This document shows positions 18,886-30,618 of a stretch of 64,000 nucleotides of DNA, piece after piece. The stretch spans positions 1 to 64,000 of the forward strand of contig WOUR01000032.1 of NCBI GenBank assembly GCA_009772935.1. The letters are read 5' to 3'. The notes beneath the pieces are model-generated. The model worked only from the letters and a program-made list of their open reading frames with translations, was not told where the DNA came from and ran no database searches. The stretch's first letter is position 1. Each line of letters starts with the position of its first letter. Made by a program: the position numbers and the translations under genes. The stretch comes from Rhodospirillaceae bacterium. GTDB taxonomy: Bacteria; Pseudomonadota; Alphaproteobacteria; Reyranellales; Reyranellaceae.

Positions 18886-19197
18886 GTGGACGGCCGGACA
18901 ATTACGCGCGCCGATCTGAGCGAGTCAGTGTTCCAGGAGGTGGGACTGTCTCGCAATGAATCCAGCGATCTCGTGGAGACCATTCTCTCCGAGGTGGTGG
19001 AAGCGTTGGCGCGCGGCGAATCTGTGAAAATCTCCTCGTTCGGGAGTTTCACGGTTCGTGACAAGGGGCAGCGTGTCGGCCGCAACCCGAAAACCGGGCA
19101 GGAAGTTCCCATCCTGCCGCGGCGAGTCCTCGTCTTTCGAGCGTCGAATGTCCTGAAATCACTGATCAACGGGGCGCCCGGCGAGAACAAGGGGTAG
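18886..19197 (+). CDS. ihfA: Integration host factor subunit alpha
   Basis: This 103-residue DNA-bending protein forms a heterodimer with IhfB. The HU/IHF signature is clear: [26 protein letters not shown], with the arm region [14 protein letters not shown]. The start is GTG 18886 with GGGGGAAG upstream. It is followed 23 bases later by the MerR-type gene, the usual alphaproteobacterial order. Confidence 0.96.
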
Positions 19198-19220
19198 TTG
19201 GGAACACGAGGGGATCTTAG

Positions 19221-19748
19221 ATGGCCGTTTCGGTTCAGACCGTCGAAAGGCGGGTCGAGAAGTCGGCGCAGGCGTTCCGTACGATCAGCGAGGTTGCGAC
19301 CGAGCTCGACGTGCCGCAGCACGTGCTGCGGTTCTGGGAAAGCAAGTTCACCCAGGTTCGTCCCCTGAAGCGGGGCGGCGGCCGGCGCTACTACCGGCCC
19401 GAAGACATCGACCTCCTGCGCCGCATACGCACGCTGCTCTACGAAGACGGCTACACGATCAAGGGTGTCCAGCGCCTTCTGAAGGAAGGCCGTGGGCGCC
19501 TGCCGGCGCAGCGTCTCGACCTTGCCGCCGAGAGCGCCCTGGAAAGTCTGCGCATCGTCTCGGCGCGGGCCGAGGCCATGGCGGGAGGCGCCCGCCAGCC
19601 GCTGCCGCGGACCGGTCCGCAACCTTCGACGACGACGCCGCGCGCGGCCGTCCTTGACCTCCACAAGCGCCGTGAGATCGAGTCGGTGCTGGAAGACCTT
19701 GAACAGGCGCTGACGCAGCTTCGCAGCACGCTGAAGACGCAAAACTAG
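19221..19748 (+). CDS. MerR family transcriptional regulator
   Basis: This 175-residue protein has an N-terminal MerR winged helix: [22 protein letters not shown], then [20 protein letters not shown] and the wing [11 protein letters not shown]. No conserved metal-binding cysteines are present in the C-terminal part, which is instead a helical dimerisation segment ([20 protein letters not shown]). The inducer is unknown. Its position after ihfA is conserved in the class, which suggests a housekeeping role. Confidence 0.9.
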
Positions 19749-19807
19749 GCCTTCGGGTCTGGAGTATCGCCGGGGGGCGGTGCTCTAGAACTTGCAGGTT
19801 GGGCGTC

Positions 19808-19835
19808 CAAAGACCACCAGATCGGGTGGTCTTTG
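19808..19835 (+). other. Strong hairpin after the MerR gene
   Basis: An uninterrupted 11-bp stem (CAAAGACCACC with its complement) encloses a 6-base loop (AGATCG) 60 bases after the stop. No T-run follows beyond the CTTT in the stem, so it is either a weak terminator or a message-stabilising 3' structure. Confidence 0.5.
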
Positions 19836-19939
19836 TAAGAAAGTGTATCAAGTAACTGGTTTTATTTGGTTTTTGTCGAGGCAGGCGTATCCTGCCCGGC
19901 GAGGGGCCTTCAACGGAATCGTCAAAGGGGGACGTGACC

Positions 19940-20245
19940 GTGCTTATGAATCGCGATTTCGCGCGCCATCACGCGCGCTCGTTTGAATTAAATTCCTTTA
20001 ATGACAATGGCCTGGAGGTCGATCTTCCCGCCATAGATGAGCTCCTTTACCTGCGGCGTGGGTTGACGCAGCCCGGCGGCAAGCTGCCGCTCTTCGATCT
20101 TGACGGTCAGGAAATCCATATTGACATCGTCAAGCGATGTTTGGCGGCGGGCTGGGCGCAGCCCTGGTTCAAGAATCCACTGAAGCCGGACTGGCTGGTC
20201 TGCAAGCTCACAGAGCGCGGGCGACAGGTCGCATCCGCAGCGTAG
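19940..20245 (+). CDS. Hypothetical protein, about 101 residues
   Basis: I do not recognise this family. The protein is soluble, of mixed composition and with no cysteine cluster, and ends KPDWLVCKLTERGRQVASAA. The LTERGR end is reminiscent of the wing of small winged-helix proteins, but the rest gives no clear HTH. GTG 19940 is preferred because GGGGGA lies seven bases before it; GTG 19934 and ATG 19946 are alternatives. Low-GC codons around 19985-20010 (AATTCCTTTAATGACAATGG) stand out from the neighbours. It lies alone between the MerR hairpin and tRNA-Pro. Confidence 0.6.
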   Translation: MLMNRDFARHHARSFELNSFNDNGLEVDLPAIDELLYLRRGLTQPGGKLPLFDLDGQEIHIDIVKRCLAAGWAQPWFKNPLKPDWLVCKLTERGRQVASAA

Positions 20246-20430
20246 CACCCGCCGTCACCCGCCGTACTGCATTCCGCCAGTTTGGCGGATGAATTCGAAG
20301 CGGAAAGACCCGAGAGAGCCAGTGACCGAGATTACAGATGGTCGCGAGCAATACGCCGCGGCTACAGCTCGTCGAACTTGAGGCAAGCGCTTCGCGCTCG
20401 ATCATGACGATGGATGGGAAGGAAGTTTAT

Positions 20431-20507
20431 TGGTCGGGGCGACAGGATTTGAACCTGCGACCCCCAGTCCCCCAGACTGATGCGCTACCAGGCTGCGCTA
20501 CGCCCCG
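20431..20507 (-). tRNA. tRNA-Pro (anticodon GGG)
   Basis: Read on the minus strand, the 77 bases fold into a full cloverleaf: acceptor CGGGGCG/CGCCCCG, D-arm GCGC/GCGC, anticodon stem TCAGT/ACTGG with loop CTGGGGG (anticodon GGG), T-arm GCAGG-TTCAAAT-CCTGT, discriminator A and an encoded CCA. Confidence 0.97.
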
Positions 20508-20555
20508 ACCGGTGCCGCCGGCCGGTAGGGCCGCGGCACGGGGGCTTTAGCGCGA

Positions 20556-21872
20556 ATGACAGCGTTGCCGCAAGCCGCGCTTGCAGGAATCAGGGTGACA
20601 AAGGATACAGGCTGCATGATCGACCCCGGCCGGCGCGTCCTGCTCTTCTCCTCGATCGGCCACGCGCTGATGCACATGATGACGGCCTTCTATGCCGTGA
20701 TCGTGCTGACGCTGGCGGCCTCCTGGAACCTGCCAGCCGAAGACCTTCTGCGTCTGTACGCGCCGGCCACGATCCTGCTGGGCGTCATGTCGCTGCCGGC
20801 CGGTTGGGCATCCGACCGGTTCGGCGCGCCCGCCATGATGGTCGTGATGTTCCTCGGCCTCGGCCTCTCGTCGATTGCCTGCGGGCTCGTGCCGACCGGG
20901 GATACGCTGGCGCTGTCATTGGCCTTGTGCGGTATCGGCGCCTTCGGTGCCTTCTACCACTCGGTCGGCATCGGCTGGGTGATCCGCACGGCCAAGGCGC
21001 AAGGCCATGCCATGGGCGTCAACGGCCTGTGGGGGAGTGCGGGGCTGGCACTCTATGGGATCGTGCCCGGCGTGCTGATCACGCTGGCCTCGTGGCGCGC
21101 GGCCTTCATCGTTCCCGGTATCGTCTGCCTGGTCGTTGGCGCCATCCTCTGGATGCAGATCCGCCAGGGCAAGGTCGGCGACCGGCCGATGCCGCAGGCC
21201 AAGGGCACTCACGTCGGCCGCCGAGACTTCTGGCGGGTCTTCTCGGTGCTGTCCGTCACCATGGCGTTGGAAGGGGTCATCTGGCAGGCGTTGATGTTCG
21301 GTGCGGCGATGGTCTTCGAGGTGAAGCTCGCACCCGAGATCTCGGCGCTGCGCGGCGGGCTCGCTTCATGGGGCGTCGCGACCCAGATCGTGCTGTGGGT
21401 CGGCCTCGCCACCTCGATGATCTACGTCGTCTCGGGCGTGGCGCAATATGCGATGGGCCGGCGCATCATCGACCGCTATCCGCTGAAGGCGACCTATGTC
21501 GTGGCCTCGGCCCTGCAGGTGATCGCCATGCTGGCGCTGGCCATGGGCAACGGCTACGTGGCGCTGCTGGGCGCCATCGCCTCGGCGGTATTGAGCGCTG
21601 CGGCGGGGCCGATCGAGAACATCCTGATCGCCCGCTACACGCCCAGCCGCTATCACGGGCTGGGCTTCGGCGCGAAATTCGTGGTGGCCTTCGGGGCGGG
21701 GCCGCTGGCGATCCTGCTGATCGCCTGGGTGCGCGAGACCACGGGGAGCCTCGAACTGCTGTTCCTCGGCCTCGCCGCCACCTCGGTCCTGATCACTCTG
21801 GTGGCGCTGCTGCTTCCCGGCAGCGACCGCGATGCCGCGCTGCCGGCACCGCGGGTCGCGCCCGCGGAGTAG
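20556..21872 (+). CDS. MFS transporter
   Basis: A twelve-helix major facilitator protein of up to 438 residues. The first loop after helix 2 reads GWASDRFGAPAMM, the MFS motif A. A middle cytoplasmic loop (MQIRQGKVGDRPMPQAKG) separates the halves. Substrate is unknown. The start is uncertain: ATG 20556, GTG 20595 (AGGAA seven bases upstream) and ATG 20616 are all in frame, and membrane topology begins only after residue 27, so a shorter protein is likely. The stop is three bases from the convergent GST gene. Confidence 0.85.
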   Translation: MTALPQAALAGIRVTKDTGCMIDPGRRVLLFSSIGHALMHMMTAFYAVIVLTLAASWNLPAEDLLRLYAPATILLGVMSLPAGWASDRFGAPAMMVVMFLGLGLSSIACGLVPTGDTLALSLALCGIGAFGAFYHSVGIGWVIRTAKAQGHAMGVNGLWGSAGLALYGIVPGVLITLASWRAAFIVPGIVCLVVGAILWMQIRQGKVGDRPMPQAKGTHVGRRDFWRVFSVLSVTMALEGVIWQALMFGAAMVFEVKLAPEISALRGGLASWGVATQIVLWVGLATSMIYVVSGVAQYAMGRRIIDRYPLKATYVVASALQVIAMLALAMGNGYVALLGAIASAVLSAAAGPIENILIARYTPSRYHGLGFGAKFVVAFGAGPLAILLIAWVRETTGSLELLFLGLAATSVLITLVALLLPGSDRDAALPAPRVAPAE

Positions 21873-21875
21873 CGG

Positions 21876-22484
21876 CTACTTCGCGCCGCGTGCCGCCTTG
21901 AAGGACGGGCGCGACAGGCAGCGGTCGAGCCAGGCGCTGACATTGGGGACCTGGCTGAAGTCGACCTTGATCGGCTTGGCCCAGCTCATGATCGAGGCCA
22001 GGTTTAGGTCGGCGACGGTGAAGGTCGGGCCCAGCAGGTAGTCACGGCCTTCGAGCGCGGCATTGAGCACCGCCAGCGGCTTGGGCAGCGCCTTCTGCGC
22101 CTCGGCGACCGCCTCCGGCTTGCGCTTGTCGGGTGGGGTCATGAACATGTCGATCAGGACCGTCAGCAGCGGCTTCTCGAGTTCGGTCATGCCCCAGAAG
22201 CTCCACTGGTTGCACAGGGCCTGGTCCTCGAGGCTCGCCGGCATGAAGCCGTCCTTGCCGTGCTTGGCGGCGAGGTAGAGGTTGATCGCCATCGATTCGA
22301 ACAGCTTGAACTCGCCGTCCACCAGCGCCGGCACCTTGCCGTTCGGGTTGACCTTGAGATAGTCGGGATTCTTGAGATCCTTCATTTCGACGGCGATGTG
22401 CTCGTACGGAATGCCGAGCTCATGCGCGATCCAGAGGGCGCGCGCCGCACGTGAGGCCGTCGGCCCGTAAATCTTGATGGTCAC
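21876..22484 (-). CDS. Glutathione S-transferase family protein
   Basis: This 202-residue GST has an N-terminal thioredoxin-like domain (VTIKIYGPTASRAARALWIA) in which SRAAR occupies the catalytic Ser/Cys region. NPNGKVPALVDGEFKLFESMAINLYLA gives the cis-Pro and the glutathione gamma-Glu-binding E-S. A C-terminal helical domain holds LGPTFTVADLNLASIMSW. GTG 22484 is chosen since GGGGAGA lies six bases before it. It is downstream of the two Rieske genes on the same strand after 65 bases, so it may be part of that operon. Substrate is unknown. Confidence 0.9.
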   Translation of the reverse strand: MTIKIYGPTASRAARALWIAHELGIPYEHIAVEMKDLKNPDYLKVNPNGKVPALVDGEFKLFESMAINLYLAAKHGKDGFMPASLEDQALCNQWSFWGMTELEKPLLTVLIDMFMTPPDKRKPEAVAEAQKALPKPLAVLNAALEGRDYLLGPTFTVADLNLASIMSWAKPIKVDFSQVPNVSAWLDRCLSRPSFKAARGAK

Positions 22485-22549
22485 GAAAAATCTCCCCAAA
22501 TCGAAAAAGCGGCGAACGATAGTGCACCGCCTCGCGCCGGTCTAACCCT

Positions 22550-23884
22550 CTATTCCGGCAGTCCGTATTCGTCGCCGACATAACCGTGACGGTGCCCGAA
22601 GCGTTCCGTCATCACCGTCGTGAGATCCTTTTCCGCCGCCGTGATCCATCCGCCGGCGCGCACGGCATAGCGTGTCGAAGCGGCGGCCGCGCGGGGCGGC
22701 TCGCCCTGCTGCAGTGCGCGGGCGGCCGCCATCAAGAGCTTGCGGAACTCGATGATGCCGACATCCGTCGGCCCGAGATGCTCTCGGGTGCGATCCTGGA
22801 TGGCGCCCTGGCTGTCCTGGATCGCCGCATCCTGGTCGGAGACGCCGCTGATGCCCGTGTAGCTCAGCGTCTTCTGCAACTCGCGATCGATCATGTAGTC
22901 GTTGCGCATGTTGCGCTTCGGCACGTAGTGCTCGTCGATTTCGGCATGGAGACTGAGCCCGGAGGCGTACTTGGCGCGCTCGGCATTGGTGAGGGGGCGG
23001 TCGGGCACCCAGCTGTAAGTGTAGATCCAGCAGCTCGTGTCATCGACCGGCACCCAAGTCTGACCGTGATAGACCTCGCCCGGGAAGGCGACCGGCACCA
23101 GCGCGTGGTTGGGCGCAAGATACTGTGCGATGCGCCAGTAGAGGTCGGTCGTGTCGGTCTTGCGCCCGGCGGCGATGACCAGCCCGGCCTCGTGGCCCTG
23201 GATCCTGAACTTGGGTCGCGGGTCGTCGGTCACCCAGCGGCTGCGATCGGCGAGGCCGCCTTCCTGTCCGATGGCGGAGGTCTTGCGCAGGATGTCGAGG
23301 CGGGTCGCCTCGTCCTTGGTCGGGATGGCGTGCAGGAACGAGAAGTGCGCGGTGTCGATGGCGCCCTCCAGGCTCTGCACCCAGTTGCAGTCCTGCCATT
23401 TCTTGGAGACGAAGCGATGGTCGGCGGGAACGAGCCCAAGCTCGAGCTGGGGCAGGTCCGGCGTGTGCTCGCGTGGGCCCATATAGACCCAGACCATGCC
23501 GGCCCATTCGCGCGCCGGGTAGGACAGCAACTTGATCGTGTCCTTGTAGGTGGATTCCGGCGGCGACGTGGGCAGGTCGACGCAGTTGCCGTCGATGTCG
23601 AATTTCCAGCCGTGGAAAGCGCAGCGGAGTCCACAGTCCTCGTTGCGGCCGAAATAGAGATTGGCGCCACGATGCGGGCAATGCGGCTCGACGATGCCCA
23701 CTCGTCCGTCGGTCTGGCGGAAGGCCAGCAGGTCCTCGCCCAGGATGCGGATCTTCTTGGGCGGCCCGTCGCGGTCGGGAAGTTCTTCGGAAAGGAGGGC
23801 GGGCATCCAGAAGCGGCGCAGCAGGTCGCCCATCGGCGTGCCGGGACCGCCTTGCGTCAGGAACGCGTTGTCGGAGGCGAGCAT
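22550..23884 (-). CDS. Rieske non-heme iron oxygenase, alpha subunit (copy 1)
   Basis: This 444-residue oxygenase has a Rieske [2Fe-2S] site with C69/H71 and C88/H91 (EPHCPHRGANLYFGRNEDCG then LRCAFHGW). The catalytic domain shows NWVQSLEGAIDTAHFSFLH, the His pair of the mononuclear iron site. It resembles the phthalate 4,5-dioxygenase type, which works without a beta subunit and needs a separate reductase; none is seen nearby. Its ATG overlaps the stop of copy 2 by one base, so it is translated second in the operon. Substrate is unknown, probably an aromatic or N-heterocyclic compound. Confidence 0.92.
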   Translation of the reverse strand: MLASDNAFLTQGGPGTPMGDLLRRFWMPALLSEELPDRDGPPKKIRILGEDLLAFRQTDGRVGIVEPHCPHRGANLYFGRNEDCGLRCAFHGWKFDIDGNCVDLPTSPPESTYKDTIKLLSYPAREWAGMVWVYMGPREHTPDLPQLELGLVPADHRFVSKKWQDCNWVQSLEGAIDTAHFSFLHAIPTKDEATRLDILRKTSAIGQEGGLADRSRWVTDDPRPKFRIQGHEAGLVIAAGRKTDTTDLYWRIAQYLAPNHALVPVAFPGEVYHGQTWVPVDDTSCWIYTYSWVPDRPLTNAERAKYASGLSLHAEIDEHYVPKRNMRNDYMIDRELQKTLSYTGISGVSDQDAAIQDSQGAIQDRTREHLGPTDVGIIEFRKLLMAAARALQQGEPPRAAAASTRYAVRAGGWITAAEKDLTTVMTERFGHRHGYVGDEYGLPE

Positions 23885-25218
23885 CAGTCACCCAATCCGT
23901 AGTTGTTTCCGATATAGCCCCGATCGTGGCCGAACCGCTCGGTCATGACCGTGGCGAGATCCTTGTCCGGCGCCGCAATCCAGCCACCCGATCTCACGGC
24001 GTAGCGCTGCGCTTTGTGGGCCGCGGCCGGCGGTTCGCCCGCGACGAGGCGGCGCGCCGTTCCCATCACCAGCTTGCGGAACTCGACGATGCCGATGTCG
24101 GTCGGCCCGAGATGCTCCTTCGTACGATCCTGGATCGGCCCCTGGCTGTCCTGAATGGCGGCATCCTGCTCGGAGACGCCGGTGATGCCGGTGAAATTCT
24201 CGCTGAGCTGAACACTGCGGTCGCGCAAGTAGTCGTTATCCTTGTTGCGCAGCGGCTTGTAGTCGGCGTCGACCTCCGAGTGGACGTTGAAGCCGCCGCG
24301 GAACTTGGCGCGCTCGGAATTGCTGAGCGGCCGGTCGGGTTGCCAGCAGTAGGTGTAGATCCAGCAGTTCACGTCATCGACCGGCACCCAAGACTGCCCG
24401 TAGTAGATTTCGCCGGGAAAGGCGGCCGGCGTGTAGGCGTGGTTGGGCATCAGGAATTGCGCGATGCGCCAGTAGAGATCGGGCCCGTCGGTCTTGCGGC
24501 CGCCGGCGATCACCAGGCCGGTGTCGTGGCCCAGCACACTGAAACGCGGCCGCGGGTCGTTCTGCACCCAGCGGACGCGATCGTCGGGCTTGGCCTGGTC
24601 GGCGAGCGCAGCGCGGCTCATGGCGCGCCGCGCCGCCTCGTCGTCGGTGGCCAGTACCTTGTGCAGGAAGGAGAAGTGCGACGTGTCGATCGCGCCTTCC
24701 AGGCTCTGCACCCAGTTGCAGTCCTGCCACTTCTTGGTGACGAAGCGGGAGGCGGCGGGGACCAGCCCGAGTTCGAGCTGCGGCAGCTCGGGCATCGTCT
24801 CGCGCGGGCCCATGTAGACCCAGATCATGTCGGCCCATTCGCGGGTCGGATAGGCGAGAAGCCTGATCGTGTCCTTGTAGGTTGATTCCGGCGGCGAGGT
24901 CGGCAGGTCGATGCAATTACCGTCGACGTCGAACTTCCAGCCGTGGAAGGAGCAGCGCAGCCCGCAATTCTCGTTGCGGCCGTAGTAGAGGTTTGCGCCG
25001 CGGTGCGGGCAGTGCGGCTCGACGATGCCAACCCGTCCGTCGGTCTGGCGGAAGGCCAGCAGGTCCTCGCCCAGGATGCGGATCTTCTTCGGCGGCCCGT
25101 CCCGCTCCGGCAATTCCTCGGAGAGCAGCGCCGGCATCCAGAACCGCCGCATCATCTCGCCCATGGGCGTGCCCTTGCCGGCACGGGTCAGGAACTCGTT
25201 GTCCGCCTTGCTGAGCAT
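23884..25218 (-). CDS. Rieske non-heme iron oxygenase, alpha subunit (copy 2, upstream paralogue)
   Basis: Also 444 residues and clearly a tandem duplicate of its neighbour: the Rieske block (EPHCPHRGANLYYGRNENCG, LRCSFHGW) and catalytic block (NWVQSLEGAIDTSHFSFLH) are almost identical, while the region after the His pair (LATDDEAARRAMSRAALADQ) differs. It starts at ATG 25218 with GGATGG upstream; the longer frame toward 25662 runs through the metY 3' end and is not coding. It lies 45 bases after metY on the same strand. Confidence 0.92.
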   Translation of the reverse strand: MLSKADNEFLTRAGKGTPMGEMMRRFWMPALLSEELPERDGPPKKIRILGEDLLAFRQTDGRVGIVEPHCPHRGANLYYGRNENCGLRCSFHGWKFDVDGNCIDLPTSPPESTYKDTIRLLAYPTREWADMIWVYMGPRETMPELPQLELGLVPAASRFVTKKWQDCNWVQSLEGAIDTSHFSFLHKVLATDDEAARRAMSRAALADQAKPDDRVRWVQNDPRPRFSVLGHDTGLVIAGGRKTDGPDLYWRIAQFLMPNHAYTPAAFPGEIYYGQSWVPVDDVNCWIYTYCWQPDRPLSNSERAKFRGGFNVHSEVDADYKPLRNKDNDYLRDRSVQLSENFTGITGVSEQDAAIQDSQGPIQDRTKEHLGPTDIGIVEFRKLVMGTARRLVAGEPPAAAHKAQRYAVRSGGWIAAPDKDLATVMTERFGHDRGYIGNNYGLGD

Positions 25219-25262
25219 TCCATCCTCCAGCTCGCCGTGTCGCCCGGCGTAGAGGCGACGGG

Positions 25263-26555
25263 CTAGGAGCGCGTCGCTTTTTCCAGAGCCTGATCGAGAT
25301 CGGCGATGATGTCTGCAACAGTTTCGATGCCGATCGACAGGCGCAACACGTCCGGGCCGGCGCCTGCTGCCACGCGTTGCTCCTCGGAGAGCTGGCGGTG
25401 CGTGGTCGAGGCGGGGTGGATGATCAGGCTCTTCGCATCGCCGATGTTGGCGAGATGAGAGAAGAGCTCGACATTGTCGACGACCTTCACGCCAACATCG
25501 TAGCCGCCCTTCACACCGAAGGTGAAGACCGAGCCCGCGCCCTTGGGCAGGTACTTCTTCGCCAGCGCGTTGTACTTGTTGGAGGGCAGGCCGGCGTAAT
25601 TCACCCAGGCCACCGCCGGATGCTTCTCGAGGTGGTGCGCGACGGCGAGCGCATTGGCGCAATGGCGCTCCATGCGCAGGCCGAGCGTCTCCATGCCGAG
25701 CATGGTGAGCCAGGCGTTGAACGGCGCCTGGGTGGGGCCCAGATCGCGCAGGCCGACGGCATGGCTATGGAACGTGTAGGCCATGTCGCCGAAGGTCTCG
25801 TAGAAGTTCAGCCCGTGATAGGCTGGCTCCGGACCGGCAAGGCTCGGGAACTTGGAGCCCCTCGACCAGTCGAACTTGCCTGAATCGACGACGGCGCCGC
25901 CCATGGAGGTGCCGGTGCCGCTCAGGAACTTGGTGGTGGAATGGACCACCAGGGTGGCGCCGTGGTCGATCGGCTTGCAGAGCCACGGCGTGGCCAGCGT
26001 GTTGTCGACCAGCAGCGGCACGCCTGCGTCCTCGGCGATGCGCGCGATCGCCTCGATGTCGCTGATCACGCCGCCGGGGTTGGCGAGGCTCTCGATGAAG
26101 AAGGCCTTCGTCTTGTCCGTGACGGCGCGCTTGAAATTGTCCGGCGTGTCGGCGTCGACGATGTTCGCCGTCCAGCCGAACTTCGGATAGGTGTTCTTCA
26201 TCTGCTGCAGCGAGCCGCCGTAGAGGCGGGAGGCGGCGACGATCTCGGCGCCGGGACTCATGAGCGGGAAGAGGGCGAGGACCTGCGCCGCGTGGCCCGA
26301 GGAGGCGACGGTGCAGCCGCGGCCGCCTTCCAGCGTCGCCAGCCGGGTTTCGAGGGCGGCATTGGTGGGGTTGGTCAGCCGCGAGTAGATGAATCCCACG
26401 GTCTGCAGATTGAAGAGGGCGGCGGCATGGTCGGCATCTTCGAAGACATAGGCCGTTGTCTGGTAGATCGGCTGGGCGCGCGCGCCGGTCGTCGGATCGG
26501 GGGCGGCGCCGGCATGCAGTGCCAGTGTCTCGAATCCATATGTCTTGTCGCTCAC
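25263..26555 (-). CDS. O-acetylhomoserine sulfhydrylase-like PLP enzyme (MetY family)
   Basis: This 430-residue Cys/Met-metabolism PLP enzyme has the family start FETLALHAGAAPDPTTGARA, then QTTAYVFEDADHAA, YSRLTNPT, the PLP-contact DNTLATPWLCKP and the Schiff-base lysine motif HSTTKFLSG. MetY enzymes make homocysteine from O-acetylhomoserine and sulfide. Here the gene opens a probable operon with two Rieske oxygenases, so a role in releasing or fixing sulfur during catabolism is equally possible. No SAM riboswitch was recognised upstream. Confidence 0.88.
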   Translation of the reverse strand: MSDKTYGFETLALHAGAAPDPTTGARAQPIYQTTAYVFEDADHAAALFNLQTVGFIYSRLTNPTNAALETRLATLEGGRGCTVASSGHAAQVLALFPLMSPGAEIVAASRLYGGSLQQMKNTYPKFGWTANIVDADTPDNFKRAVTDKTKAFFIESLANPGGVISDIEAIARIAEDAGVPLLVDNTLATPWLCKPIDHGATLVVHSTTKFLSGTGTSMGGAVVDSGKFDWSRGSKFPSLAGPEPAYHGLNFYETFGDMAYTFHSHAVGLRDLGPTQAPFNAWLTMLGMETLGLRMERHCANALAVAHHLEKHPAVAWVNYAGLPSNKYNALAKKYLPKGAGSVFTFGVKGGYDVGVKVVDNVELFSHLANIGDAKSLIIHPASTTHRQLSEEQRVAAGAGPDVLRLSIGIETVADIIADLDQALEKATRS

Positions 26556-26788
26556 GCAGTTCTCCCTGTGGCTCGCAAATTCATATCGCCATTCCGCCCA
26601 TCACCCGGGCGTCCCGTCAAACCCGGGCGAAGGCTGGCGGACGGATCTCTCAATGTCCTTTCATTCCGGAGAGCGGGCTACCCAATCCCGGCGTCAGCTT
26701 GGCGTAAGCATCGGACAGTACGGTCCGCGCCTGTGTTTCGCGATTACGCCGTCGCAGCACAGCGTAAATGTTTGGGGAGCGAAGCGCC

Positions 26789-27238
26789 GTGAATCGGTTT
26801 GTGACCAAGGACTTCCTGTCCGGGTTGATGTTCGTCGCCTTCGGTCTGGCGGCCCTCTATTTTGGGCAGCATCTTGCCGTCGGCACGCCCGTTCGTATGG
26901 GACCGGGCTATGTGCCCCGGATGCTCTCCCTGATCCTTCTGGCGCTCGGCGCCGTGGTCTGCATCGTGGCTCTGGTGAGCGGCAGCGAGCCGGTCGAGCG
27001 CCCGAAGTGGAAGCCGATCACCCTGGTGACACTCGGCATCGTCTGTTTCGGGCTGCTGTTCGAGCGTGCGGGGCTGATCCCGGCGCTGGTGGTGCTCGTC
27101 ATGATCTCGTCGCTGGCCGGCGAGGAATTCAAGCTCACCGAGGTGATCGGCAACATCGTCGTGCTCTCCATCCTCTGCACGATCGTCTTCAAGGTCGGGC
27201 TGGGCATGAACATCGCCATCGTGCAGGGGATTTGGTGA
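26789..27238 (+). CDS. tctB: Tripartite tricarboxylate transporter small membrane subunit TctB
   Basis: This protein of about 149 residues has four hydrophobic segments, typical of TctB. The N-terminus (FVTKDFLSGLMFVAFGLAALYFG) and GPGYVPRMLSLILLALG are family marks. GTG 26789 is preferred as the start, with GGGGAG twelve bases upstream; ATG 26768 would add seven residues. It precedes tctA by one base. Function depends on tctA, which is broken here. Confidence 0.88.
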   Translation: MNRFVTKDFLSGLMFVAFGLAALYFGQHLAVGTPVRMGPGYVPRMLSLILLALGAVVCIVALVSGSEPVERPKWKPITLVTLGIVCFGLLFERAGLIPALVVLVMISSLAGEEFKLTEVIGNIVVLSILCTIVFKVGLGMNIAIVQGIW

Positions 27239-27239
27239 T

Positions 27240-28662
27240 ATGGGTCTCCTAGACAATCTCGTCCTCGGCATCGGCGTCGCCTTCACCTTCCAGAACCTGG
27301 CCTACGCCCTGCTGGGGTGCATGGTCGGCACCCTGATCGGCGTGCTGCCCGGCATCGGCCCCGTGGCGACGATCGCCATGCTGCTGCCCATCACCTTCCA
27401 CCTGCCGCCGACTGCCTCGCTGATCATGCTGGCGGGCATCTATTACGGTCTACCAGATGGCGAGAAGGGGACGTGCCGGCGCGGCACTCTCGATCTCCGC
27501 GGTCGGTTCGTTCTTCGCCGGCACCGTCGGAACCATCATCATCGTCATCTTTGCCGAACCACTGACGCAAATGGCGCAGAAGTTCGGCCCGGCCGACTAC
27601 TGCTCCCTGATGGCTCTTGGTCTCGTCGCCGCGGTGGTGCTCGCCAGCGGTTCGATCACCAAGGCGATCTCGATGGTTTTCCTCGGCTTGCTGTTCGGAT
27701 TGATCGGCACCGACGTCAACACCGGGGCGCAGCGCTTCACCTTCGACATTCCCGAGCTGAGCGACGGCATCGATTTCGCGCCGATCGCGATGGGCCTGTT
27801 CGGCATCGCTGAGATCGTCGTGAACCTCGAACGACACCTCGAACGCGGCGGGGCGATCAAGGTGGGCTCGTTGTGGCCGACGCGCGAGGAGATCAGGCGC
27901 TCCATCCCAGCCATTCTGCGCGGTACCTTTCTGGGATCGATGCTCGGCGTGCTGCCGGGCGGTGGGCCGACGCTGGGCGCCTTCTCGGCCTACACGCTGG
28001 AGAAGAAGCTGTCGAAGAACCCGGGTGAGTTCGGCAAGGGGGCGGTCGAGGGCGTCGCTTCGCCAGAAGCGGCCAACAACGCCGCCGCCCAGACCTCGTT
28101 CATACCGATGCTCACCCTCGGCATCCCGTCCAACGCCGTCATGGCGCTGATGGTCGGCGCCATGATCATCCAGGGCATCCAGCCGGGTCCCGAGGTCATG
28201 ACCAAGAAGCCCGACTTGTTCTGGGGCATGATCGTCTCGATGTGGATCGGCAACGCCATGCTGGTCATCATCAACCTGCCGATGATCGGCATGTGGGTGA
28301 AGCTGCTCACCGTGCCGTACCGTTATCTTGCACCGGCCATCCTGCTGTTCTGCTGCATCGGCGCCTACAGCCTGCAGAACAGTACCTTCCACGTCATGCA
28401 GGTCGCAATCTTCGGCGTGTTGGGATACGTCTTCGTCAAGCTGGGCTGCGAAGGGGCGCCGTTCTTGCTGGGGCTCGTGCTCGGACCGCAGATGGAGGAG
28501 TACTTCCGCCGCGCGATGCTGCTCTCGCGCGGCGATGCCATGGTCTTCATCGAACGGCCGATCAGCCTCGGCCTGCTCATCACGACGGCGCTGCTGCTGG
28601 TCCTGATGGCGCTGCCGAGCATCAAGAAAGCCCGCGAGGAGGCCTTCCAGGAGGAAGGCTGA
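27240..28662 (+). pseudogene. tctA: tctA, tripartite tricarboxylate transporter large membrane subunit, disrupted by a frame-changing internal deletion
   Basis: The first 70 residues (27240-27449) read as a normal TctA N-terminus: LGCMVGTLIGVLPGIGPVA through IMLAGIYYG. The frame then shifts by one, and from 27451 another frame continues with YQMARRGRAGAALSISAVGSFFAG to the stop at 28662. In intact TctA about 27 residues lie between those blocks, including the signature GAQYGGSTTAIL and the PGE segment; they are missing. The whole span is 1,423 bases, about 80 bases short of a full gene. Downstream blocks (GVLPGGGPTLGAF, LGIPSNAVMALMVGAM) are intact. Either the gene is truly inactivated or about 80 bases were lost in assembly. 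Confidence 0.88.
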
Positions 28663-28666
28663 CGCT

Positions 28667-29731
28667 TCAGCGCGAGAACACGATGCACGCCGGGCTGCCG
28701 ACCTTGGCCCGTAGCCTGGTCGGCGCCAGAAGCCCGCTGCGGCCGACCTTGTAGGCAACGATCGAATCACCGCCCTGGTTGACGACGTAGAGGAAGCGCG
28801 CGGCCGGATCGAAGGCAAAGAAGCGGGGAACGCTGCCCTTGGTCGGCACCCACTGGCGCGGCGTCAGCGTGCCCTTGGCGGCATCGATACCGAACACACC
28901 GATACTGTCGTGCCCGCGGTTCGAGACATAGACGTTACGGCCGGCGCCATCGACCCAGATCTCCGCACCGGTGCTGTAGCCCGTGAAATCCGACGGCGTC
29001 GACGGCACGGTCTGCAGCGGCGTCAGGGCTCCGCTGGCCGTATCCTGGCGATAGGTCGTGATCGTCGAATCGAGCTCGTTGATGACGTAGGCGAACGGCT
29101 TGCGGGGATGGAAATCGATGTGACGTGGGCCGGCGCTCGGCCGGCAAGCCACACGGCTGGTTTCGACCAGAACACCTCGCCGGGCGTCGAGCCGGTAACC
29201 GATCACGCAGTCCGAACCCTTGCAGGGCAGGTAGAAGGTCCGATTGGCGCGATCGAGCGGATTGTGATGCGGCCGCACGTTCTTCTGTTCGGTGCGGTGC
29301 GGCCCCAGCGGCGCGGCAATGGCCGTCAGCGTCGAGTAGGGTGCAAGGCTTCCGTCCTTGGTGATCGGCAGCGCGGCCAGCGAATCGGAGCCATAGTTGC
29401 TCACGACCAAGAACCGCTGATCGGCATCGAAGGTGAGGTGGATGGGGTTGTAGCCGCCGGTCGGCTGGCGGTTCAGCACGGCCAATCGACCGGTCTCGCG
29501 ATCGACGATGTAGGACGTCGCCTCGCTGCGATCGCCATGTACCGAATAGAGGCGGTCCCCGGCGCCGTTGAGTGCAAGGAAAGACGGGTTCTCCAGTCCG
29601 CCGAGATGCTGGACATGTCGAAACGCCCCCGTGCGCGGGTCGACACGATAGACGTTGATGCCGTTGCCGCGGCCGTTGCGTTCCGGCGAGGTGTAGCTGC
29701 CGACATAGGCGAAGAGTGGGCATGTTATCAT
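28667..29731 (-). CDS. Lactonase family protein (seven-bladed beta-propeller, YbhE/muconate-cyclase type)
   Basis: This protein of about 354 residues consists of repeated propeller blades, with recurring pieces such as RFLVVSNYGSDSLAALPI, RNVYVSNRGHDSIGVFGID and RFLYVVNQGGDSIVAY. The family covers 6-phosphogluconolactonase and carboxymuconate cyclase, acting on sugar or aromatic-ring lactones. GPRHIDFHPRKPFAYVINE carries the conserved His and Glu. No signal peptide is evident from ATG 29731; an in-frame ATG at 29767 would nearly touch the divergent SDR gene. It is convergent with tctA, four bases apart. Confidence 0.85.
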   Translation of the reverse strand: MITCPLFAYVGSYTSPERNGRGNGINVYRVDPRTGAFRHVQHLGGLENPSFLALNGAGDRLYSVHGDRSEATSYIVDRETGRLAVLNRQPTGGYNPIHLTFDADQRFLVVSNYGSDSLAALPITKDGSLAPYSTLTAIAAPLGPHRTEQKNVRPHHNPLDRANRTFYLPCKGSDCVIGYRLDARRGVLVETSRVACRPSAGPRHIDFHPRKPFAYVINELDSTITTYRQDTASGALTPLQTVPSTPSDFTGYSTGAEIWVDGAGRNVYVSNRGHDSIGVFGIDAAKGTLTPRQWVPTKGSVPRFFAFDPAARFLYVVNQGGDSIVAYKVGRSGLLAPTRLRAKVGSPACIVFSR

Positions 29732-29769
29732 CACAGGAGTTTCGGTGTCGAGGCTACGGGAGGTCAACG

Positions 29770-30618
29770 ATGGCAGACGCTCTGCAAAAGGTCGCGCTGG
29801 TCACCGGCGCCAACCAGGGCCTGGGACTGGCTTTGGTGCGAGCGCTGTGCAGCGCCCTTGGCATGGGGAGCACCGTGTACCTTGCGGCCCGTGATATGGG
29901 CCGTGGCGAGGCGGCGTGCGCGCTGCTGCAGCGGGAGGGGCTGAGTCCCGCACTGATCCAGCTGGACATCGCCGATGCTGCCAGCGTTTCGGCGGCCGCC
30001 GACGAGATCAAGGCGCGCCATGGCGGCATTGACATCGTGATCCAGAACGCGGCGGCGCGGATCACGCGGGAGACACCGCAGACGGATCAGGTCGCGCGTT
30101 TCGTCGACACCAACAATCACGGGACGCTTCGGATCATCGAGGCTTTCGTTCCGCTGCTGCGGGACAATGCGCGGTTCATCGTGGTGGCGAGTTCCTTCGG
30201 CTCGCTGCGCCATCTCGATCCACGTCTGCACGCCCGTTTCGACTCGCCAGGGCTCACGCTGGACGACATCGAGCATGCGATGGACGATTTCGCGGCGGCA
30301 ACGCGCGCCGGTTCGGCCCGAGAAGCAGGCTGGCCCGACTGGATCAACGTGCCGTCGAAGATCGGCCAGGTGGCTTCGGTACGCGTCCTCGCGCGAGACA
30401 GGTCGGAAGAGTTCCGCCGGCGCGGCATCCTTGTGAACGCTGCCTGTCCCGGCCTCGTCGATACGGAAGCATCGCGCCCATGGTTTGCCGACATGTCGAA
30501 GGCGGCGACGCCGGACGAGGCGGCGCGAGATCTCGTTTGGCTAGCCACTCTGCCGGCGGGGAGCGAAGAACCCTATGGCGTGCTGGTGCGCCATCGTAAG
30601 CCGTATCCGTGGACCTAG
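29770..30618 (+). CDS. Short-chain dehydrogenase/reductase of the carbonyl reductase type, catalytic Tyr replaced
   Basis: This 282-residue Rossmann protein has the NADP site VALVTGANQGLGLALVRAL, the structural QNAAAR and the catalytic-region Ser in IVVASSFGSL. Its nearest pattern is the CBR1-like group, as shown by EAGWPDWINVPSKIG and VNAACPGLVDTEASRPWF. In CBR1 the active site reads Tyr-x-x-x-Lys. Here the Lys (197) is present but the Tyr position (193) is Asn, codon AAC at 30346. Normal SDR reduction is therefore doubtful. It is convergent with the EamA gene with a one-base gap. Confidence 0.85.
   Translation: MADALQKVALVTGANQGLGLALVRALCSALGMGSTVYLAARDMGRGEAACALLQREGLSPALIQLDIADAASVSAAADEIKARHGGIDIVIQNAAARITRETPQTDQVARFVDTNNHGTLRIIEAFVPLLRDNARFIVVASSFGSLRHLDPRLHARFDSPGLTLDDIEHAMDDFAAATRAGSAREAGWPDWINVPSKIGQVASVRVLARDRSEEFRRRGILVNAACPGLVDTEASRPWFADMSKAATPDEAARDLVWLATLPAGSEEPYGVLVRHRKPYPWT

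Follow-up and report, generated by a model that had tools for sequence, protein, structure and literature searches.

A metY-headed gene unit of Reyranella with a layered history and a tandem pair of Rieske oxygenases

Four genes lie close together on the minus strand of a 64,000-nucleotide stretch of DNA from a bacterium of the Reyranellaceae (contig WOUR01000032.1, positions 1 to 64,000; hereafter the window). They are metY, whose product is a predicted O-acetylhomoserine sulfhydrylase, two tandem genes for Rieske oxygenases (ROs) and a gene for a protein of the glutathione transferase (GST) fold. Comparison with relatives reveals that the unit accreted in the order metY, then GST, then an RO or a VOC (glyoxalase-fold) gene, then a second RO. 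We consider it somewhat probable that the RO pair serves carboxylated substrates with an unlinked reductase and rides on metY transcription rather than sharing the MetY pathway. An earlier note, made from the sequence alone, had described a co-directional run and suggested that it serves the breakdown of a sulfur-containing aromatic compound; the co-directional unit was confirmed and is conserved, and the sulfur-aromatic pathway finds no support in the unit's history. Searches of an open-access collection of papers brought up none on this set of genes.

The first gene of the unit is metY (25263..26555, GTG start), followed by the front RO (copy 2; 23884..25218), the rear RO (copy 1; 22550..23884) and GST (21876..22484, GTG start, with an alternative longer reading from a TTG start at 22499). 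All four minus-strand reading frames are open. The gaps between them are 44, -1 and 65 bases, and the ATG of the rear RO shares one base with the stop codon of the front RO; genes, order and overlap are as first described, with the first gap corrected from 45. The MetY protein, which has profile and PDB matches, scores 684 bits against NF004650 (PRK05994), above the cut-off of 667. Both ROs (444 aa each, Rieske and LigXa_C domains) and the GST (GST_N and GST_C) exceed the Pfam cut-offs, and the family assignments of the earlier note stand because all are above curated NCBIfam or Pfam thresholds. Front and rear RO are 72% identical across 440 residues.

Conservation was examined in 65 genomes of the genus. 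This metY was present in 60/65 at 86-100% identity, and GST was found in 60/65. Searching from metY, an RO was located directly downstream on the same strand in 54/60 genomes carrying metY. The two genes were on separate contigs in 4/60 (G041, G055, G063 and G027), and an RO of this type was not found in 2/60, G007 (a single contig) and G029, where the best match was 36% identical and lay elsewhere. The next gene after metY was RO in 54/56 loci, at a median distance of 13 bases; 17 overlapped and 52 were within 65 bases. When loci were instead gathered by RO similarity, metY was directly upstream in 54/62 Reyranella-type RO loci; five others end at a contig edge within ~150 bases of the RO, and L029, L057 and L061 have the RO elsewhere. 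The four-gene arrangement is not due to chance, as the same order recurs across the genus, and the description of the genes as one run was borne out by this neighbourhood search. The tight co-directional spacing of metY and RO makes a shared transcript with translational coupling likely, and from the spacing all four genes likely form one transcription unit.

The order of accretion emerges from more distant relatives. A MetY match at E <= 1e-170 was found in 159/387 genomes of the Alphaproteobacteria, and by similarity the window metY is taken as an ortholog of this widespread gene. MetY neighbourhoods were compared in eleven sister-genus genomes of the order (G065-G075). In 10/11 loci metY and GST are together and co-directional without an RO; the exception, G071 (genus g4), carries a single RO between the two genes. 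In 3/4 loci of genus g3 (L161, L162 and L163; Pfam for L161 only) a co-directional VOC gene lies between metY and GST. A major facilitator superfamily (MFS) gene follows in 8/10 sister-genus loci without an RO, and of the remaining two loci one is truncated at a contig edge. As a control outside the order, 40 of ~154 MetY loci were sampled, all of them ranking in the upper half, with ~4-5 kb on each side where contigs allow (L244 offers only ~200 bases downstream and L230 ~1 kb). GST and RO were sought by tblastn with queries from the Reyranella order (E <= 1e-8, identity at least 27%), a search that could miss a very divergent GST. None of the 40 had an RO (0/40) and none a co-directional GST next to metY (0/40); L239 has a 31% identical GST on the opposite strand ~2 kb off. 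An MFS gene was downstream on the opposite strand in 8/40.

On the metY protein tree the presence of RO requires two changes. The RO-less Reyranella pair groups next to an RO-bearing genome (support 90/77, within a 98/90 clade), and because G007 and G029 are nested among RO-bearing genomes their state is read as loss of the RO with metY-GST kept. The RO composition of the unit (front, rear, third type and combinations) requires 19 changes on the same tree, counted on 58 rows with known state after leaving out seven rows cut by contig ends, so copies were often lost or swapped.

Outside the genus, ROs keep different company. A search of 20 loci whose ROs are 58-62% identical (Bradyrhizobium-type, Burkholderiales and others) found no match to metY, GST or MFS near the RO in any of them (0/20), within at most 10 kb on each side and less at contig ends. 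Neighbour counts in these loci come from simple gene calling and are approximate, with some GC-rich genes mis-framed. Downstream of the RO in Variovorax L067 come genes for TctC, HpcH/HpaI aldolase, E1 dehydrogenase and ADH, and several other Burkholderiales loci have clusters matching these neighbours near the RO. A gene of cluster c5 is near the RO in eight Bradyrhizobium-type loci, directly upstream in seven, and its L079 member belongs to the TauD/TfdA family. TauD itself frees sulfite from taurine. These contexts point to ordinary catabolism, the TauD link being the sole faint hint of sulfur. For plasmid relatives of the RO, the best places were all below 60% identity, and among the 25 matches listed the annotations, where given, were generic.

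The RO copies that lie away from metY (L057, L029 and L061) have no common partner. The L029 RO adjoins genes for a FAD-dependent oxidoreductase and an AMP-binding enzyme, and the surroundings of the L061 RO gave no clear assignment. In L057 (1739-12954), from an alphaproteobacterial metagenome-assembled genome, an RO of this clade adjoins luciferase-like monooxygenases and a gene for CofD, which acts in coenzyme F420 synthesis. The sister genera have an RO of their own elsewhere in their genomes, 52-61% identical, next to a redoxin and an APH-type kinase gene (two proteins scanned), neighbours that give no clue to the substrate. Movement of this sister-genus RO into the metY unit is not favoured: the Reyranella ROs group with Bradyrhizobium-type ROs (support 95) in a quick LG+G4 search that carries a long-branch warning, long branches meeting in the sister-genus part.

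Domain content and conserved residues mark the two proteins as Rieske non-haem iron oxygenases of the phthalate/isophthalate dioxygenase (LigXa_C) type. Among PDB sequences the front RO is matched best by the Comamonas testosteroni KF1 isophthalate dioxygenase (IPDO; 9ina, 9ioy; E 5.6e-97), and the closest folds to the RO model are IPDO, a Cupriavidus RO and phthalate dioxygenase (PDO), with Z of 35.5-33.3. The IPDO report (PMC12445078) gives the Rieske and iron ligands, the bridging Asp, R234 as carboxylate-binding and H257 as binding the second carboxylate. With positions assigned from that source, the [2Fe-2S] ligands C70, H72, C89 and H92, the bridging D178 and the mononuclear-iron ligands H181, H186 and D352 are invariant in 121/121 RO rows. 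R251, which aligns with the carboxylate-binding R234 of IPDO and R244 of PDO, is likewise invariant in 121/121. The H257 position is Q in 118/121 rows and Y in 3, and the position of PDO R207 is Q219 in the front RO (alignment read by eye). Phthalate and isophthalate are unlikely substrates because the second-carboxylate residue is Gln in the front copy at both the H257 and R207 positions. It is thus unlikely that these ROs are isophthalate or phthalate dioxygenases proper, the second carboxylate-binding residue being absent, and the substrate would rather be a mono-carboxylated ring compound.

All 90 Reyranella-type ROs form one clade (support 100), comprising 42 front copies, 39 rear copies and a third group of 9. 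Fourteen positions differ consistently between front and rear (>85% in each group): seven lie in 262-273 and 310-312, six lie in 189-220, and the last is 161. The first seven flank aligned IPDO pocket residues. In the front RO, codons 262-273 (24400..24435, minus strand) hold the differences at 262, 263, 271 and 273, which are beside and not at the residues aligned with IPDO I246, F249 and H257, and codons 310-312 (24283..24291, minus strand) hold three, with 312 aligned with pocket residue I294. The third group differs mostly at two other pocket positions, 176 and 267.

We examined 30 RO pairs, six of which have a third-type copy in the rear place. In 5/30 pairs the two copies had stretches of identical DNA 174-446 nt long, all within codons 2-155; the longest identical tract between genomes was 94 nt (870 pairs). 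Over the first 150 codons the two copies were mutually nearest among 90 rows in 7/30 pairs (8 by a looser rule); over the catalytic half this held in 0/30. In the L173 pair the first halves differ by 0.4% and the second halves by 27.5%, and the pair's origin in a single-contig genome argues against an assembly artefact. These patterns indicate that gene conversion has happened repeatedly, and only within the Rieske half of the tandem ROs. It is not universal, because in the other 25 pairs the Rieske half is on average about as similar within a genome as between genomes. Conversion limited to this half is seen in the pairs of L173, L027, L040, L021 and L044. The segments homogenised in some relatives correspond in the window to codons 1-155 of the front RO (24754..25218) and their partner, codons 1-155 of the rear RO (23420..23884), both on the minus strand. 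Recent conversion was not seen in the window's own pair, where the longest identical tract is 56 nt, inside the between-genome range.

We wondered whether the co-translated paralogues form mixed trimers, a single oxygenase in which two sorts of active site coexist and which the metY unit expresses. In IPDO each iron receives its electrons from the Rieske centre of the adjacent subunit, 12.5 A away (PMC12445078). Since electrons cross between subunits in this fold, each catalytic pocket of a mixed trimer would be fed by the Rieske domain of the other paralogue, and conversion would let either Rieske half stand in for the other as the catalytic halves drift apart. We regard mixed trimers as rather doubtful.

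The earlier note reported no reductase or ferredoxin gene nearby, and a profile search agrees: none of the genome's 5 FAD_binding_6 or 15 Fer2 matches is on the window contig (C23). Three genes elsewhere in the genome, on C107, C93 and C109, have both FAD_binding_6 and Fer2, all below NCBIfam cut-offs. The ROs probably draw electrons from one of these three unlinked reductase-type genes.

A MetX-type gene, for supply of O-acetylhomoserine, is present in the genome, above the PRK00175 cut-off and below that of TIGR01392. No S-adenosylmethionine or S-adenosylhomocysteine (SAM/SAH) riboswitch was found by Rfam search of positions 19000-30000 of the window (E up to 1) and of eight relatives (gathering score), a search that bears on riboswitches and not on protein regulators. 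Methionine-regulated metY, which the earlier note held would count against its reading, therefore gains no support as far as riboswitches in these sequences are concerned. The region 5' of metY (26556..26767) is the longest gap able to house a promoter for the whole unit; it has no sigma-70-type consensus and no Rfam match. Scanning of 21700-26900 gave 0 promoter sites against 0.5 expected and 3 terminator-like sites against 3.5 expected, counts so close to expectation that the scan is uninformative.

These results suggest the following sequence of events. An old alphaproteobacterial metY, whose product would make homocysteine from O-acetylhomoserine and sulfide, may have gained a downstream GST in the ancestor of the order. 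An RO gene would then have been inserted between metY and GST, in the same direction, in the ancestor that Reyranella shares with one sister genus, and would have become tightly spaced with metY. This RO presumably duplicated early, the catalytic halves of front and rear diverging. Copies would later have been lost in some lineages and Rieske halves exchanged by gene conversion in several genomes. Each RO may oxidise a related carboxyl-bearing aromatic or alicyclic compound, with electrons supplied by an unlinked FNR-type reductase. MetY would share transcription with the ROs, not a pathway.

Several observations weigh against this explanation. Within the genus nearly every unit keeps the RO between metY and GST, and starts overlap; this could mean functional coupling to sulfur metabolism. 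Further homocysteine-synthase candidates exist in the genome, MetY-like on C56 and C107 and MetZ-like on C105, so the window metY need not be the housekeeping gene and may have a special role. Only 1/9 aligned IPDO pocket positions (312, Val vs Leu) separates front from rear, making distinct substrates for the two copies a weak inference. The predicted RO model has a mean pLDDT of 68 and a pTM of 0.74, with segments below pLDDT 50 at 182-191, 195-219 and 310-370, and for this reason most of the differing positions and D352 are placed by sequence alignment alone. The long branches of the RO tree belong here too.

The proposal of the earlier note was that the ROs attack the ring of a sulfur- or thioether-bearing aromatic, GST cleaves the thioether or conjugates an intermediate, and MetY recaptures the sulfide. 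The four genes are indeed co-directional and conserved in the genus, none of the metY-RO loci lacks GST unless a contig edge truncates it, and the c5 gene with its TauD/TfdA-family member stands near eight Bradyrhizobium-type ROs. The layered history argues against such a pathway, as metY-GST is older than the RO and stays when the RO is lost. By the earlier note's own account the operon depended on metY keeping to the oxygenases, and metY is unlinked from RO in 10/11 sister-genus loci, in the 40 loci sampled outside the order and in two Reyranella genomes. Nor do the RO relatives outside the genus fit, with no metY, GST or MFS match in the DNA searched at any of the 20 loci described above and the Variovorax neighbours forming an ordinary carbon-catabolic set that is echoed in several other Burkholderiales loci. 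No sulfonate or desulfurisation enzyme, or other sulfur-metabolism gene, was seen among the 12 neighbouring genes scanned, a subset of the genes in the window. We judge the sulfur-aromatic operon decidedly unlikely.

A stress or detoxification unit is unlikely to a lesser degree. Here MetY, GST and an inserted enzyme would be co-expressed against reactive electrophiles or for thiol balance, the slot recruiting oxidative or conjugating enzymes. Different inserts do occupy the same slot (VOC in 3/4 g3 loci, RO in g1 and g4), and GST is beside metY in 11/11 sister-genus loci, with the RO between in one. That two RO types are kept whose catalytic halves differ consistently fits specific substrates better than broad detoxification. 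MetY might also serve a biosynthetic step, a gamma-substitution on O-acetylhomoserine like that of FUB7 in fusaric acid synthesis, with the ROs tailoring the product. ROs also act in biosynthesis, and FUB7 structures are among the five best PDB matches of MetY. The protein is nevertheless the widespread ortholog above the PRK05994 cut-off, and no biosynthetic partners are among the scanned surrounding genes, leaving this idea highly improbable. The preferred explanation is the layered unit, in which the ROs ride on metY transcription.

The twelve window neighbours scanned encode a lactonase, an SDR, an EamA protein, parts of a branched-chain-type ABC transporter, TctB, MerR, a histidine kinase and a trypsin/PDZ protease, one being without a match. 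Defence-system models gave no match for five proteins. The MFS transporter gene (20556..21872, plus strand, start codon uncertain) is convergent with the unit and is a conserved neighbour that predates RO insertion; past it, beyond the GST end, lies tRNA-Pro(GGG) (20431-20507). A 103-aa protein gene at 19934-20245, near merR-ihfA-plsX, occurs in the loci of most relatives and has no Pfam match at E <= 0.001. The distance from tRNA-Pro(GGG) to this gene is ~0.2 kb in the window (20245-20556) and ~4 kb in L011 (14641-19042), and in L016 (14678-20665) the MFS and 103-aa genes are ~6 kb apart. Judged by eye, the open reading frames of at least 180 aa in these expanded stretches resemble genes for transporters, a kinase and enzymes, and none is evidently an integrase. 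On the metY side, tctA (27240-28662; tripartite tricarboxylate transporter large membrane subunit, named from similarity to relatives) is split over two frames, with ~80 bases missing near 27447 compared with L058, either a pseudogene or an assembly fault.

The unit illustrates how genes inserted one after another downstream of a core biosynthetic gene can come to look like a pathway operon, which calls for care when pathways are deduced from gene order. Modular evolution has a natural experiment in the RO pair, with the electron-accepting half homogenised and the catalytic half diverged in several genomes. Whether redox partners are shared, and whether mixed trimers form, can thereby be tested directly.

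Comparison with known systems places each component. MetY agrees with its family (PRK05994/NF004650) in scoring above the cut-off and in having a MetX-type gene in the genome; it differs in heading an RO-GST unit and in the presence of at least two more MetY-type genes. The ROs share with IPDO the Rieske and iron ligands, the bridging Asp, the Arg (R234, R251 here) and the fold (Z 35.5 and 35.2). They are only ~35% identical to it, no reductase gene accompanies them on the window contig, and IPDO H257, F333 and V178 align with Q275, V348 and F182, which makes isophthalate unlikely. PDO of C. testosteroni KF1 (7fjl, 7v25, 7v28) has the same fold (Z 33.9-33.3), the same domain pair and R244 at the R251 position; it differs in its phthalate-binding R207, replaced by Q219 in the front copy. 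The 5,5'-dehydrodivanillate O-demethylase LigXa gives its name to the C-terminal family PF19301, and its likeness to the ROs of this unit is one of domain name alone.

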